64,000 nucleotides of DNA from Muribaculum sp. An289 (GTDB taxonomy: Bacteria; Bacteroidota; Bacteroidia; Bacteroidales; UBA932). Each line of letters starts with the position of its first letter. Position 1 is the first letter of the stretch. This document shows, piece after piece, positions 46,681-59,751 of this stretch. Location: assembly GCF_002159555.1 (NCBI RefSeq), contig NZ_NFIV01000003.1, positions 124,001 through 188,000 of the forward strand. The letters run 5' to 3'. The notes beneath the pieces were generated by a model. The model saw nothing but the letters and a program-made list of their open reading frames with translations, was not told the origin of the DNA and did not search any database. A program made the position numbers and the translations under genes.

Positions 46681-46714
46681 TTTGGGCAAATATAGCAATA
46701 TTTCGTTATTTTTG
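46681..46714 (+). promoter_or_regulatory. Promoter of the TPR-barrel gene pair (and opposing ftsE -7)
   Basis: Plus strand: TTTG at 46681-46684, a 22-bp spacer, TATTTTTG at 46707-46714, 20 bases before the ATG at 46735. Minus strand: TATATTTG (46694-46687) is a -7 match for ftsE, so the two promoters overlap. Confidence 0.65.
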
Positions 46715-46734
46715 TAGTTTGTAACGTGATTACT

Positions 46735-49758: not shown

Positions 49759-53503
<3,745 letters not shown>

Positions 53504-53510
53504 CGGCAGA

Positions 53511-53542
53511 CCGGTGAGATTTTGGCGAGCCGGTAAGATTTT
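53511..53542 (+). repeat. 19-bp tandem duplication after gyrB
   Basis: CCGGTGAGATTTT (53511-53523) and CCGGTAAGATTTT (53530-53542) repeat with a period of 19 bases, starting 8 bases after the gyrB stop. Confidence 0.7.
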
Positions 53543-53572
53543 ATAGATTATTCATCCTTAATATTTTGTGTT

Positions 53573-54835
53573 ATGACAGATATTTTCGACAGGATCGAGA
53601 AGGATTCAGGTGGTCCTCTCGGGCAATATAGGAAAAAAGCCTTCGGTTATTTCATGTATCCGAAACTTGAGGGGGAAATAGGCCCTCACATGCGTTTTAA
53701 CGGTAAGGAAGTGCTTTGCTGGAGTCTCAATAACTACCTTGGCCTTGCAAACCATCCGGAAATAAGGAAGATTGACGGTGAAGCGGCCGTAAGATGGGGC
53801 CTCGCCTATCCGATGGGAAGCCGTATGATGAGCGGACATACTTCCCTTCATGAGCGTATGGAGCGCGAGCTTGCCGATTTCGAGAAGAAGGAAGACGCTT
53901 TCCTTTTCAACTTCGGTTACCAGGGCATCATTTCCACTATCGATTCCCTTTGCACGAGGCACGATGTGATAGTATACGACTCTGAGGCGCACGCCTGCCT
54001 TATAGACGGTTGCCGCCTGCATCAGGGAAAGAGGATGGTTTATCCGCACAACGACATCGAGAAATGCGAGAAGACGATACAGAGGGCTTTGAAAGTCTGC
54101 GAAGAGACAGGCGGCGGAGTCCTCCTTATCACGGAAGGCGTGTACGGCATGACGGGCGCCCTCGGGATTCTGGACAAGATAGTGGCCCTCAAGCAGAAAT
54201 ACCAGTTCCGCATACTTATTGACGATGCCCACGGCTTCGGCGTGATGGGCGAGCACGGCCGCGGTACTTCGGAGCATTTCGGTTGCATGGACGGCATCGA
54301 TCTCTATATCGGCGCGTTTGCAAAGTCGATGGCGATTATCGGAGGTTTCGTAGCCGGACCTCACTCGATAATAGATTACCTCCGGTACAATCTCCGTTCA
54401 CAGATATATGCGAAATCGCTTCCTATGCCTATAGTCGAGGGATGTCTGAAACGTCTGGAGATTATCCGCAGCGCGGAAGGCGATGAACTCCGCAAGAAAC
54501 TCTGGACTGTCACAAGGGCCCTCCAGGACGGTTTCAGGAATCTCGGTTTCGATATAGGTCTCGCGCAGGCCTGCGTTACGCCGGTCTTCGTCCACGGGAC
54601 TATCCCGCAGGCTACGAACATTGTCGTGGATCTTAGGGAAAATTACGGAATATTTTGCTCGGTAGTGACTTACCCGGTAATTCCTAAGGGGTTGCTGATG
54701 TTCAGGATAATACCTACGGCAGTGCATACGCTCGAAGATGTCGACAGGACTCTGAAGGCCTTTGCCGAAGTCAGGGACAAACTCGCCCGCGGCTTTTACG
54801 ATGCAGACGATATTCAGGACAGAGCTATAAGATAA
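53573..54835 (+). CDS. Alpha-oxoamine synthase family PLP enzyme (candidate serine palmitoyl- or cysteate acyltransferase)
   Basis: 420 residues. Fold type I PLP enzyme of the serine palmitoyltransferase/KBL/BioF family: NNYLGLANHPE, MGSRMMSGHTSLHERME, the NFGYQGIIS loop, HAC and ILIDDAHGFGVMGEHGRG (PLP-contacting Asp/His). The Schiff-base Lys is expected in IGAFAKSMAIIGGF. The N-terminus (DIFDRIEKDSGGPLGQYRKK) is longer than BioF. Its stop overlaps the start of a short-chain reductase (TAATG). An acyl-amino-acid condensation followed by ketone reduction is the first two steps of sphingolipid and of sulfonolipid (capnine) synthesis, which fits Bacteroidales. Which amino acid is used (Ser, Cys-derived cysteate, Gly) cannot be read from sequence alone. 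Confidence 0.85.
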   Translation: MTDIFDRIEKDSGGPLGQYRKKAFGYFMYPKLEGEIGPHMRFNGKEVLCWSLNNYLGLANHPEIRKIDGEAAVRWGLAYPMGSRMMSGHTSLHERMERELADFEKKEDAFLFNFGYQGIISTIDSLCTRHDVIVYDSEAHACLIDGCRLHQGKRMVYPHNDIEKCEKTIQRALKVCEETGGGVLLITEGVYGMTGALGILDKIVALKQKYQFRILIDDAHGFGVMGEHGRGTSEHFGCMDGIDLYIGAFAKSMAIIGGFVAGPHSIIDYLRYNLRSQIYAKSLPMPIVEGCLKRLEIIRSAEGDELRKKLWTVTRALQDGFRNLGFDIGLAQACVTPVFVHGTIPQATNIVVDLRENYGIFCSVVTYPVIPKGLLMFRIIPTAVHTLEDVDRTLKAFAEVRDKLARGFYDADDIQDRAIR

Positions 54836-55653
54836 TGAATACTGACGGTAAGGTCGTGATAATAACGGGAGCCAGCTCTGGTATAGGGTTGGCTTCTTCG
54901 AAATTATATGCCTCCCGCGGTTATCGGGTGGTGATGGCCGCACGCTCCGTGGACAGGCTGACGGAAGAGGCCGCTTCCTTCGGATGCGACATGGACAATA
55001 TCCTGTGTGTCAAGACGGATGTCTCGGTAGAGGAGGATTGCCGCAACCTCGTGGAAAAATGCGTGGAAAAGTTCGGCAGGATAGACATACTGATTAACAA
55101 TGCCGGCATTTCCATGCGGGCGATGTTCAGGGACCTGGATCTGTCCGTGCTTAAAAGGCTTATGGACGTTAATTTCTGGGGAACAGTATATTGCACCAAG
55201 TACGCTCTTCCGTATTTGCTTGAAACGAAAGGCTCCGTAGTCGGTGTGATAAGCATAGCCGGCTATTCCGCCCTTCCGGCCCGCAGCGGGTATGCGGCTT
55301 CGAAGTACGCCATAAGGGGTTTTCTGGATACGTTGAGGATAGAGCACCTTTATGACGGTCTGCATGTGCTTGTAATGGCTCCGGGCTTTACTGCTTCGAA
55401 TATCCGTAATACCGCCCTGGCTGCCGACGGTTCCCAGCAGGGGGAATCCCCGCGCGATGAATCGAAGATGATGAGCGCGGAAAGGGTGGCCGAAATAATG
55501 GCCCGTGCCATAGACAGGAGGAAATCGAGGGTGATACTTACGCCGATAGGGAAACTGACCGTACTCATGCACCGGATGTTTCCGGGGCTGACCGACCGGC
55601 TTACGTTTTCCTACATGGCCAAGGAGCCCGATTCCCCTTTCAAGAAAAAATAA
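54835..55653 (+). CDS. Short-chain dehydrogenase/reductase (candidate 3-ketosphinganine-type reductase)
   Basis: 272 residues. Classical SDR: nucleotide loop TGASSGIG (about 11-18), NNAG (about 88-91), catalytic Ser in VISIAGYSALPA, and Y-x-x-x-K as GYAASKYA. The C-terminal part has a membrane-near hydrophobic stretch (LTVLMHRMFPGLTDRLTF), as in DHRS7/KDSR-like reductases. Its ATG overlaps the oxoamine synthase stop by one base. It probably reduces the 3-keto product of that enzyme (inference). It could also be a general fatty-acyl ketoreductase. Confidence 0.85.
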   Translation: MNTDGKVVIITGASSGIGLASSKLYASRGYRVVMAARSVDRLTEEAASFGCDMDNILCVKTDVSVEEDCRNLVEKCVEKFGRIDILINNAGISMRAMFRDLDLSVLKRLMDVNFWGTVYCTKYALPYLLETKGSVVGVISIAGYSALPARSGYAASKYAIRGFLDTLRIEHLYDGLHVLVMAPGFTASNIRNTALAADGSQQGESPRDESKMMSAERVAEIMARAIDRRKSRVILTPIGKLTVLMHRMFPGLTDRLTFSYMAKEPDSPFKKK

Positions 55654-55659
55654 AGAGTT

Positions 55660-57690
55660 ATGGAAAAGGATATTTTCCCGAAAGGGTGGAAGGTATATTT
55701 GCCTCTCATCGTGATTTTCGTGATAATGCTGTTCTTCTTTCCGAATGTCGGAAAGTTCAAGTACCATTATCAGATAGGGCGCCCGTGGGCGTATGAGACC
55801 CTGATCTCCCCGATAGATTTTCCTATCCTGAAGACGGAAAGGGAACTTATGGATGAGCGCGAAGAGCGTTCTTCTTCCGTAATCCCGTATTTCAGGTATG
55901 ACGAAAAAATAAGGAAGGAGGTGGGCGAGAGGCTGTCCAAAGCCATCGATACGCTTTCGGCCGATGCGGACCTCGTCCTGTCGCTTTTCGATGACGTGTA
56001 TGACTACGGGGTTGTCTCTTCGCTCTCCGCCCAGGAGATAGAAAACGGGATGGTCTTCGTACATAAGGACAGGAGGGCCGCCGAGGTTCCTGTGGAAAAC
56101 ATTTTCGATATAGCCCATGCGGGGGAATATATAAGGAAACAGCTTGCGGCCGGGATGGGTGAGGAGCGGGCCGATTCGCTTTACGCGGCAATGGGGCTTT
56201 CGGATTACCTTGTCCCGAATCTTATTTTCGACCAGGCTACTACCGACATGATTCATAAGGAGGCCGCCGGCTATATCTCCCCGACGAAGGGCATCATATA
56301 TACCGGACAGCTGATTGTGTCCAAGGGCGAGATTGTCACTTCCGAAATCGCCCAGCTGCTCGATTCGTACAGGGCGGAATACCTTTCGGACATGGGCATA
56401 GCGGGCAATACCATCCTGATTGCCGTAGGAAACGGGCTGTTGCTCCTCCTGTCGCTTCTGGCGTTTTTTGCTGCAATTTTATTTGTCGACAGGACTGTCT
56501 TCAGCGATTCGCGGAAATATTTTTTCCTCCTTACGCTTTATGTGATTTCGACACTTATCATCGAATTGCTCGGGGCCGTGGGCAATACTTCCTACATGCA
56601 CCTTATCCCGTTCCCGCTGTTCGCCCTCTACATGCTCGCATTTTTCAAGAGGAATTTTGTCTTTCCTCTTTATACCGTGCTTCTACTGCCTCTGCTCGTG
56701 GTTACGGCGGAAGGTACCGAGCTGTTTTTCATAAACCTGCTGGCCGGTATCGTGGCAATAATATCATACTCCCGTTTCAACAGGGGCTGGTTGCAGTTCG
56801 TGAACGCGTTCTTTATTTTCATGACCCTTTCGCTTTCCTATACCGCTTTCGTGTTTTTGCAGAACGAGGATCTGGGGCAGTACCGCGATTACCGGGACAT
56901 ATTCTACCTCGGACTCGCGAGCCTGTTCTGTGTGGCGGGTTATCCGCTCATCTTCCTGTTCGAGAGGGTTTTCATGCTCGTTTCCAATTCGAGGCTCCTT
57001 GAGCTTGCCGATACCAACAACAAGCTTCTGAGGCTTATGGCGGAGAAGGCTCCGGGGACATTCCAGCACGTGCTTCAGGTCATGAACATTTCGGATGCCT
57101 GCGCCCGTGCCATAGGGGCCAACGTGCAGCTTGTGAGGACGGGTGCGTTGTACCATGACATAGGGAAGACGGTCAATCCACAGTGTTTTGTGGAGAATGC
57201 CGCTCCTGGTGTAAATTACCATGAAGGGCTTACTCCGGAGGAGAGCGCGAGGGATATCATCAAGCATGTGGACGACGGTGTTGCCCTTGCGAAAAAGTCG
57301 AAGATTCCGCAGATAATCATAGATTTTATCCTGTCGCACCACGGGACGACGAAGACGGAATATTTTTATAATATGTATCTCCGCGGCGGTGGCGACCCTT
57401 CGCAGGCCGGACTTTTCCAGTACCATGGATTCAAACCGAAGACGAAGGAGCAGGTAATCCTCATGTTCGCCGACACCGTAGAGGCCGCGTCGAGGTCCTT
57501 AAAGGATTATTCGCAGCAGAGTGTCACTGAACTCGTCGACCGTGTAATCGGAATGAAGATGGATGACGGGCAGCTGGAGGATGCCGAAATATCCCTCAAG
57601 GAGGTAAGCGTGCTGAAGTCCGTGCTGGTGGAATATCTGATGCAGATAAACCATGCGAGGATAGCTTATCCGAAGAGGCCGCAAAAATAG
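55660..57690 (+). CDS. pgpH: 7TM-HD phosphohydrolase, PgpH/YqfF type
   Basis: 676 residues. One N-terminal membrane segment (about 10-30), an extracytoplasmic 7TMR-HDED-type domain (about 35-245) with paired helices, then seven membrane segments (about 250-460) and a cytoplasmic HD domain (about 465-650). The HD residues fall at His-Asp about 497-498 (ALYHDIGKT), with FQHVLQV about 470 upstream and ILSHHGTTKTEYF downstream. This architecture hydrolyses c-di-AMP in Gram-positive bacteria. c-di-AMP signalling also occurs in Bacteroidota, so the same role is likely. It lies 6 bases after the reductase and has no obvious promoter, so it may be read with the lipid genes. Confidence 0.88.
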   Translation: MEKDIFPKGWKVYLPLIVIFVIMLFFFPNVGKFKYHYQIGRPWAYETLISPIDFPILKTERELMDEREERSSSVIPYFRYDEKIRKEVGERLSKAIDTLSADADLVLSLFDDVYDYGVVSSLSAQEIENGMVFVHKDRRAAEVPVENIFDIAHAGEYIRKQLAAGMGEERADSLYAAMGLSDYLVPNLIFDQATTDMIHKEAAGYISPTKGIIYTGQLIVSKGEIVTSEIAQLLDSYRAEYLSDMGIAGNTILIAVGNGLLLLLSLLAFFAAILFVDRTVFSDSRKYFFLLTLYVISTLIIELLGAVGNTSYMHLIPFPLFALYMLAFFKRNFVFPLYTVLLLPLLVVTAEGTELFFINLLAGIVAIISYSRFNRGWLQFVNAFFIFMTLSLSYTAFVFLQNEDLGQYRDYRDIFYLGLASLFCVAGYPLIFLFERVFMLVSNSRLLELADTNNKLLRLMAEKAPGTFQHVLQVMNISDACARAIGANVQLVRTGALYHDIGKTVNPQCFVENAAPGVNYHEGLTPEESARDIIKHVDDGVALAKKSKIPQIIIDFILSHHGTTKTEYFYNMYLRGGGDPSQAGLFQYHGFKPKTKEQVILMFADTVEAASRSLKDYSQQSVTELVDRVIGMKMDDGQLEDAEISLKEVSVLKSVLVEYLMQINHARIAYPKRPQK

Positions 57691-57691
57691 A

Positions 57692-57722
57692 TTGCGTATT
57701 ATGCGCGTTTTTCGTATATTTG
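57692..57722 (+). promoter_or_regulatory. tig: Promoter of tig-clpP-clpX
   Basis: TTG at 57692-57694, 20-bp spacer, TATATTTG at 57715-57722, a close match to the Bacteroidota consensus. The tig start follows at 57764. Confidence 0.7.
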
Positions 57723-57763
57723 CGCCCTGTTTTGCTGAAAATAGAAAAAATAGTATATAGATT

Positions 57764-59083
57764 ATGGAAATTAAAAGCAACAAAATCGATGAGCTCGATA
57801 TCAGATTGAGCGTCAACGTGAATGAAGCGGATTACGCAGACGATGTGAAGAAAAGACTTTCCGCTTACAAACGCAATGCGGAGATAAAAGGTTTCAGGAA
57901 AGGAATGGCTCCGATTTCCCTCATACAGAGGCTGTACGGGGTGTCAGCACGCAGCGAGGCCGTGAACGACATCCTCTCCAAGGCCCTTCAGGATTATATT
58001 CAGGAAAACAAACTGAACATTATCGGCGAGCCGCTTCCGTCCGAGGACAGGAAAGCCGTCGATTGGGAGAAGGACAAGGATTTCGAATTCGATTTCGACA
58101 TTGCCGTTTCGCCTGAGATAAATCTCGAGATTTCTAAAGAGGACAGCGTGACCTATTATAATGTGAAAATAGACAAGAAGGCCAAGGATTCCATGAGGAA
58201 CAGCCTGCTCGGCCAGTACGGTTCGCTTGAAGACGGCGAATCGGTCGGCGAGGACGATTTCTTCACTGCCGATTTCGAGCAGGAAGGGACAAAGGTCGAG
58301 GATACTTACGTCGCTGTCAGAAGCATGTCGGAAGCGGGGAAGAAGGAGATTGTCGGGAAGAAATCCGGGGATGTCATCGATGTGGATGTGAACCTGTGGT
58401 TCGAGAACGAGACCGACCGTGCTTCCATGTTGAAACTCAAGAAGGAAGAACTGTCGGGGATACAGCCTGTATTCAAAATGACGGTCAAGAACATCAAGCA
58501 TTTTGTTCCGGCCAAGGCCGACCAGGATACATTCGACAGGATTTTCGGAAAGGACGTTGTCAAGACCGAAGAGGAATTCGATGCGAAAATAACGGAGAGG
58601 CTGCGTGAGGAGTATGACCGCGAGCGCGATTACAGGTTCATGCTCGATGTAAAGGAATATCTGCTCGATAAAGCGGCCATTTCGCTTCCTGAAAACTTCA
58701 TGAAGAGGTGGATATATTATGCCAATGACGGAAAATTCACCATGGAGGATATCGAAAAAGAGTTTGATCTGTTCCTGAAGGACTACCGCTGGCAGATGCT
58801 CCGCAGGTATTTCCTGGACAAGTTCGAGGTCAAGGTGTCGAAGGAAGACCTTCTTGCTACGGCCAAGGAATTTGCCGTATACCAGTTCGCGATGTACGGA
58901 ATCAGCAATGCTCCTGAAGACCAGTTGCAGAAGTTCGCCGAGCAGATGCTCGCCCATGACAAGGAAAGTTCGCGCATATACGACAAGACCGAAGACGATA
59001 AGTGCATAGCTGCCGTCAAGGAGCACATAACCCTTAAAAAGAAAGACATTACCATAGAGAAGCTCCGCGAGCTCAACGGATAG
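57764..59083 (+). CDS. tig: Trigger factor
   Basis: 439 residues. The N-terminal ribosome-binding domain holds the [12 protein letters not shown] signature (about 45-57). The central domain (about 135-235) is an FKBP-like region with poor conservation of the prolyl isomerase pocket, as is usual in Bacteroidota. The C-terminal helical arms (about 245-439) read as in trigger factors. It holds nascent chains at the ribosome exit. Only 2 bases separate it from clpP. Confidence 0.93.
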
Positions 59084-59085
59084 TC

Positions 59086-59751
59086 ATGGAGACCGAATTC
59101 GAAAAATATGCAAGGGGCCATCTTGGCATAAGTTCATTGAACTTGTACCGGTACCGGTCCGCCTTCGATGATTATATCAATCCTACGATTATCGAGGAGC
59201 GGAAGCTGAATGTGGCCCAGATGGATGTGTTCAGCAGGCTGATGATGGACAGGATTATTTTCCTGGGAGTGCCGATTTATGATGACGTTGCCAACATAAT
59301 CCAGGCCCAGCTGCTGTTCCTCGATTCGAGCGATTCTTCCGACATTCAGCTTTATATCAATTCCCCCGGAGGTTCGGTAAGCAGCGGTCTCGGGATATAC
59401 GATACCATGCAGCTCATACGTTCGGACGTTTCCACCATCAACACGGCGATGTGCGCGAGCATGGCTTCAGTGCTTCTTTGCGCCGGTGCCAAGGGAAAAC
59501 GTTTTGCCCTCCCTCATTCGAAGACCATGATTCACCAGCCTTTGGGAGGGGCCCAGGGGCAGGCTTCGGATATCGAGATTGCAGCCAAGGAGATTTCCAA
59601 GACCAAGCAAGAGCTTTATAAGATACTTTCCGAGCATACCGGGCAGACAATCAAAAAGATTACTTCCGACGGGGACCGCGATTACTGGATGACTTCACAG
59701 GAGGCCCTCGATTACGGGATGATTGACGAGATTTTGGTTAAAAAGAAATAA
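59086..59751 (+). CDS. clpP: ATP-dependent Clp protease proteolytic subunit
   Basis: 221 residues. Catalytic Ser125 ([13 protein letters not shown]) and His150 ([14 protein letters not shown]), with the Asp in the DGDRDYW stretch at about 197-199. [19 protein letters not shown] is the standard substrate loop. A rather long N-terminus (about 25 residues before the mature fold) may be a propeptide. Tetradecameric serine peptidase fed by ClpX, encoded next. Confidence 0.97.

Follow-up and report, generated by a model that had tools for sequence, protein, structure and literature searches.

A 64,000-nucleotide stretch of the Muribaculum sp. An289 genome (forward strand of contig NZ_NFIV01000003.1, positions 124,001 to 188,000; hereafter the window, whose own numbering is used below) carries two adjacent genes, sulA and a short-chain dehydrogenase/reductase (SDR) gene, that very probably encode the condensing and reducing steps in the synthesis of capnine, the sulfur-containing base of sulfonolipids, by a known pathway; the next gene downstream, pgpH, looks like a neighbour and not a partner. 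We computed the family membership of the condensing enzyme and of a cysteate synthase encoded elsewhere in this draft genome (2.32 Mb in 36 contigs, 99.8% complete), the state of a diagnostic residue, the linkage of the genes and their co-occurrence across the order.

All three open reading frames (ORFs) are intact (Table 1), and their coordinates and junction DNA confirm the layout described by an earlier, sequence-only reading of the locus, that is, a TAATG overlap followed by a 6-base gap to the PgpH gene. At the first junction (..AGATAATGAAT..) the TAA stop codon of the synthase gene (54833-54835) runs into the ATG start codon of the SDR gene (54835-54837), and at the second the SDR stop codon ends at 55653 and the pgpH ATG lies at 55660, leaving a spacing of 6 nt.

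Table 1. Features of the sulA locus (window coordinates) and the cysteate synthase gene of the same genome
Feature	Coordinates	Strand	Basis
gyrB (context), 70 nt upstream of sulA	51521..53503	+	name from conserved neighbourhood and by eye
sulA, cysteate acyltransferase (predicted to form 3-ketocapnine), 420 aa	53573..54835	+	PDB scores; 100/100 SulA clade
Lys251 codon, PLP-binding lysine (A. finegoldii SulA numbering)	54323..54325	+	alignment to 7U7H, gap-free to here
Lys281 codon, proposed SulA (Lys) versus SPT (Ala) discriminator	54413..54415	+	alignment; rule from the available text of PMC9304779
TAATG, sulA stop and SDR start with one common base	54833..54837	+	direct sequence reading
SDR, probable 3-ketocapnine reductase, 272 aa	54835..55653	+	Pfam, NCBIfam, motifs, sulA linkage, co-occurrence
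pgpH, 7TM protein with HD domain of c-di-AMP phosphodiesterase type, 676 aa	55660..57690	+	domain and structure matches
Possible unit end before tig-clpP-clpX: terminator-like hairpin (57693-57707), then TATATTTG (57715-57722)	57693..57722	+	weak
Cysteate synthase, contig C34 of the same genome	G000:C34:74585-75790		TIGR03844, 9K3C

The condensing enzyme and its probable coupled reductase

Judged by its sequence, the synthase is a SulA-type cysteate acyltransferase. It scores 605 bits (E 4.7e-181) against the PDB structure 7U7H, 568 bits against 28EH, whose title reads Cysteate-C-fatty acyltransferase, and 217 bits against the serine palmitoyltransferase (SPT) structure 3A2B; the corresponding identities are 63% (412 aligned residues), 59% and 32%, and identity to Kbl and BioF is only 26-29%. 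7U7H is the SulA of Alistipes finegoldii (Alfi_1224), which is reported to use cysteate and acyl-acyl carrier protein (acyl-ACP) and not serine or phosphoserine, and for which Lys281, an Ala in SPT, has been proposed as a marker of SulA (PMC9304779, available text). Residue 281 is Lys in the host synthase and in 105/105 recovered orthologues (a length and motif filter yielded the SulA ORF in 105 of the 109 loci tried, and four loci were dropped), Ala in 3A2B, Asn in Kbl and Thr in BioF. The catalytic residues Asn53, His140, Lys251 and Arg376 are all found in the host synthase, which also has Gly115 and Tyr116 in common with the A. finegoldii enzyme and differs from it at Thr248, replaced by Ala, and at Gly255, replaced by Ile.

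Phylogeny and profile scores point the same way. A tree of 41 rows places the host synthase in a 100/100 clade with 7U7H and 28EH, both of them characterised, and holds Kbl and BioF as separate supported groups, the outgroup branches being long and their order unsure; no grouping of the synthase with Kbl or BioF, on which the sequence-only reading had said its proposal would fall, is seen. That the enzyme differs from the best known Bacteroides serine palmitoyltransferase, as had been remarked, is borne out by NF047600 (Bacteroidota serine palmitoyltransferase), whose score of 280 bits falls short of the 640-bit cut-off, and a profile search of the host genome found no gene above this cut-off. 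The second α-oxoamine synthase of the genome is a Kbl (510 bits to 7V58), and a third, on contig C1, is BioF-like; this last label comes from the tree (97/93) and from a gene overlapping it that resembles bioA by eye, the PDB scores being tied (Kbl 197 bits, BioF 195 bits). SPT, Kbl and BioF were each tried as identities for the synthase encoded in the window and were ruled out by the scores, residue 281 and the tree.

The SDR is probably the 3-ketocapnine reductase, an assignment made from its linkage to sulA and from co-occurrence. The protein matches PF00106 (E 6e-50) and NCBIfam model NF004825 (296 bits, cut-off 215), and has both the cofactor and the YxxxK motifs (TGASSGIG at residue 11, NNAG, YAASK at 153). 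Among the 80 nearest named sulA loci, to which all locus counts refer unless another number is given, this SDR gene lies downstream of sulA in the same orientation and no more than 300 nt away in 51. In the two records of Candidatus Merdivivens the SDR alignment begins 3 nt past the SulA match, compatible with the same overlap, and in the remaining 49 linked loci the two genes are 9-144 nt apart. Our survey of the order took in 247 genomes, comprising 175 of a SulA class (best E<1e-100; one member, G154, at 8.3e-107), 42 in which the only synthase is a distant one (best E from 4e-62 to 7e-76) and 30 with neither, the last class including 10 genomes not listed by name in the synthase search. 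Close orthologues of the SDR (E<=1e-60) occur in 116/175, 2/42 and 7/30 of these, respectively, and the two distant-synthase genomes concerned (G127 and G227) are drafts of at least 300 contigs. As an alternative identity FabG was rejected, two of the FabG models listed giving 124 and 128 bits, below their cut-offs of 296 and 222.

The 3-ketocapnine reductases described for A. finegoldii and Chryseobacterium gleum carry the same SDR motifs and have been proposed for the same step as the host SDR; their genes are reported to be scattered, away from that for the condensing enzyme (PMC11211663, available text), whereas the host SDR gene adjoins sulA. Likewise, the available text of the A. finegoldii papers describes no SDR clustered with sulA, in contrast to the translational coupling seen here.

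Cysteate supply and the proposed pathway

The genome search for a cysteate synthase that the sequence-only reading had called for turned up one, on contig C34, which scores 484 bits with TIGR03844 (cut-off 324.9) and has PDB 9K3C (Cysteate synthase) as its best match, at 584 bits. According to the available text of a review, Alistipes and Odoribacter use an archaeal-type cysteate synthase (PMC10191378). TIGR03844 matches at E<=1e-60 are found in 63/175 SulA-class genomes, in 0/42 with only a distant synthase and in 4/30 with neither. The host gene belongs to the same family as 9K3C, but it stands at the end of a run of heterodisulfide reductase (Hdr)-like genes (L127:1561-7860, on C34).

In the pathway that we infer, SulA would condense L-cysteate with a fatty acyl thioester, reported to be acyl-ACP in A. 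finegoldii (PMC9304779, available text), to 3-ketocapnine and CO2; the translationally coupled SDR would take this as its substrate and use NAD(P)H to reduce its 3-keto group, giving capnine; and an N-acyltransferase would then produce the sulfonolipid as the final lipid. The cysteate would be made by the archaeal-type synthase encoded on contig C34. Condensation and keto-reduction of a long-chain base by the synthase and the SDR had been proposed from the letters alone and are supported here, with cysteate as the amino acid.

Several side observations concern genes near the cysteate synthase or sulA. In the host genome a gene for an MscS-type channel (L127:7857-8840) overlaps the cysteate synthase gene at its downstream end, and beyond it, on the opposite strand, lies a gene for a 515-aa protein with a PF01553 acyltransferase domain (L127:8856-10403). 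In three other loci a threonine-synthase-like PALP gene directly follows sulA (L168:4939-6195, L169:8415-9641 and L166:7851-9080). These sulA-adjacent genes give 108-121 bits with TIGR03844, below the 324.9 cut-off, and may encode a second kind of cysteate synthase.

Competing explanations and the pgpH neighbour

One rival is a sphingolipid-base operon of serine palmitoyltransferase and 3-ketosphinganine reductase: fold and chemistry are the same, the SPT 3A2B represents the next family and joins the SulA clade at 88/81, and the cofactor and YxxxK motifs of the SDR are described also for the 3-ketosphinganine reductase BT_0972. We nevertheless consider it very improbable: the synthase is almost twice as close in identity to SulA as to SPT and has Lys281, no protein of the genome passes NF047600, and the SDR is nearly absent (2/42) from genomes whose only synthase is a distant one. 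The sequence-only reading had left open whether the operon makes a sphingolipid or a sulfonolipid base; its sulfonolipid half stands, and its serine half is disfavoured because of Lys281, the tree and the cysteate synthase in the genome, which together make cysteate, named there as an alternative substrate, the best-supported one. A second rival, in which the synthase serves amino-acid or biotin metabolism as a Kbl or BioF type next to an unrelated oxidoreductase, has in its favour general NCBIfam scores of 285 bits for PRK06939 (Kbl) and 275 for bioF, both far below their cut-offs; it is improbable in the extreme, given that the genome has its own Kbl and BioF-like genes elsewhere and that the tree keeps the groups apart. 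A different challenge takes the cysteate synthase away from the lipid and assigns it to another sulfonate, such as a cofactor resembling the coenzyme M of methanogens. In Methanosarcina acetivorans, for which TIGR03844 is likewise above its cut-off, cysteate is a precursor of coenzyme M, and Hdr-like genes adjoin the cysteate synthase in the host family. Against this, TIGR03844 tracks SulA and is absent from all 42 distant-synthase genomes, and in other families it is sulA that the Hdr-like set adjoins. We regard this explanation, too, as very improbable.

The remaining rival accepts the sulfonolipid-base operon and adds a functional tie to pgpH, by which c-di-AMP turnover and envelope lipid supply would be adjusted jointly. 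It can point to the 6-nt spacing and to a gene with a diadenylate cyclase domain in the host genome. In addition, of the 71 nearest named loci whose sequence extends far enough past sulA, 52 have pgpH at most 3.5 kb downstream, loci without the SDR gene included. On the other side, PgpH homologues (E<=1e-40) occur in 210/247 genomes of the order, some SulA-less ones among them, and among the matches listed SulA and PgpH lie within 5 kb of each other (by eye) only in the host genome and one relative of its family. We therefore judge the tie very improbable, and the idea of a shared control of envelope lipids and second messenger, at which the sequence-only reading hinted from the gene spacing, is not supported: the order-wide distribution and the spacing reveal no specific association of PgpH with SulA, since the protein is common across the order and, among the matches listed, adjacent to SulA in the host clade only.

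Returning to sulA and the SDR gene as the capnine pair, several findings weigh against that assignment. No close SDR orthologue is present in 59/175 SulA-class genomes, in 13/80 loci pgpH is the very next gene after sulA, and in two genomes the second gene after sulA encodes a different SDR (34-35%); this SDR family therefore does not always fill the role. This agrees with A. finegoldii, in which several unclustered SDRs are reported to have reductase activity in E. coli assays (PMC11211663, available text), so that such activity by itself may fail to single out the physiological reductase. The 112/175 SulA-class genomes that lack TIGR03844 at E<=1e-60 would need another cysteate source. Residue 248 (codon 54314-54316), a Thr contacting the PLP (pyridoxal phosphate) phosphate in 7U7H, is Ala in the host, as it is in 90/105 recovered orthologues; the contact is known from one structure and, in the available text, is not a published family criterion. 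Finally, all these counts overstate significance because genomes of one order are not independent.

We regard PgpH itself as a neighbour particular to this lineage, its second-messenger role being a general one. It has the HD domain of Listeria monocytogenes PgpH (Lmo1466, 4S1B/4S1C; E 1e-54) and, by sequence comparison, the same 7TMR-HDED and 7TM-7TMR_HD architecture, with the HDIG motif present as HDIGK at residue 499. For a PgpH/HD-type protein of P. gingivalis, the available text of PMC9259658 reports possibly no c-di-AMP phosphodiesterase action under the conditions used. Co-transcription of sulA and pgpH in the host clade is likely, since the neighbourhood is kept in most of the nearest named loci with enough downstream sequence. 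In the three loci looked at, the 0.9 kb that precede pgpH contain a gene on the minus strand, by eye for an esterase-type alpha/beta hydrolase (L043:7292-8140, L065:8084-8932 and L024:8087-8917).

Beyond the three genes, gyrB and sulA are paired in 57/80 loci, and the arrangement gyrB-sulA-sdr-pgpH-tig-clpP-clpX is found again in Candidatus Merdivivens pullicola and Candidatus Merdivivens pullistercoris, whose SulA proteins are 97% and 94% identical to that of the host and whose genus NCBI taxonomy places in the Muribaculaceae of the Bacteroidales. Scans of 51000-59500 for sigma-70-type promoters and terminators revealed no excess over shuffles. TAnnTTTG alone occurs at chance level across the window (31 found, 29.9 expected), with no match between gyrB and sulA. 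The hairpin after pgpH and TATATTTG, which resembles the Bacteroidota -7 element, thus mark a unit end weakly, because neither kind of match exceeds shuffles. The longer pattern TTTG-N17-23-TAnnTTTG has 6 matches in the window against a shuffle mean of 0.99, one of them at 46681-46714, just upstream of a 1008-aa ORF that begins at 46726.

Candidate further parts of sulfonolipid synthesis

Relatives of the locus raise the possibility, which we put forward tentatively, that Bacteroidales make sulfonolipids with dedicated components not described before, namely a membrane-bound Hdr-like complex and, in Cryptobacteroides and relatives, a condensation-fold N-acyltransferase. The latter is a protein of ~430 aa encoded between the SDR gene and pgpH in 20/80 loci (L025:8114-9430 and 19 among L026-L057), five of them in records named Cryptobacteroides and the rest in uncultured Bacteroidales; in one (L028) the SDR is missing and the gene directly follows sulA. 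Neither of the two proteins that were scanned matched a Pfam or NCBIfam model at E<=1, and His120, Asp125 and Gly128 are invariant across the 20 sequences. An AlphaFold2 model (pLDDT 81, pTM 0.84) adopts the fold of condensation domains and CoA-dependent acyltransferases, with Z scores of 27.0 to AzeD, 23.4 to polyketide synthase associated protein 5, 22.0 to a starter condensation domain with C8-CoA and 21.8 to a wax ester synthase. A fold in common does not by itself reveal a function; capnine N-acyltransferase is the natural guess, and we treat the protein as a candidate for that role. Its profile finds 8/247 genomes of the order, strongly in one (G008), where the gene again lies between the SDR gene and pgpH. 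The host genome yielded no condensation-fold acyltransferase with one sequence (E<=0.01, run without a positive control) or with the profile (E<=1e-5), a negative that leaves room for a distant one.

The Hdr-like genes encode proteins of the types HdrC, HdrB, FAD HdrA-like, Fe-S protein and TM-FeS-CCG protein; two of those in the host run were scanned and neither exceeded an NCBIfam cut-off. The run adjoins the cysteate synthase gene in the host and in both fetched relatives of its family, and in 0/12 regions of other families. In five genomes of four other families, chosen because the listed coordinates showed sulA and Hdr-like genes close together, no more than ~4.5 kb separate the five-gene set from sulA: in G108 a single strand carries sulA, a PALP-fold gene and all five Hdr-like genes, with overlaps between several of these, and in G141 the last of the five stops ~30 nt short of sulA. 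Loci with the five-gene set are L127, L138, L139, L166, L167, L168, L169 and L170. HdrB of this type (E<=1e-60) is found in 72/175 SulA-class genomes, 2/42 with only a distant synthase and 3/30 with neither; within the SulA class it is no commoner with TIGR03844 (26/63) than without (46/112), which argues against a link to the TIGR03844 cysteate synthase alone. Purely as a hypothesis, the complex might supply sulfite or perform redox work for cysteate or sulfonolipids. The literature titles and abstract openings listed, mostly without subscription journals, described neither a sulfonolipid N-acyltransferase gene nor a link between Hdr and sulfonolipids.

Gene coupling and co-occurrence thus tie a particular SDR family to the capnine pathway, for which the A. 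finegoldii work had found several active reductases and no clustering. The side findings, if both are true, would open two gaps, the sulfite source for cysteate and the final N-acylation, to direct testing. The introduction of PMC9304779 reports effects of Bacteroidota sulfonolipids on inflammation in the host and on the development of choanoflagellates, and with the locus described here a coherent capnine pathway can be drawn for an uncultured gut clade.

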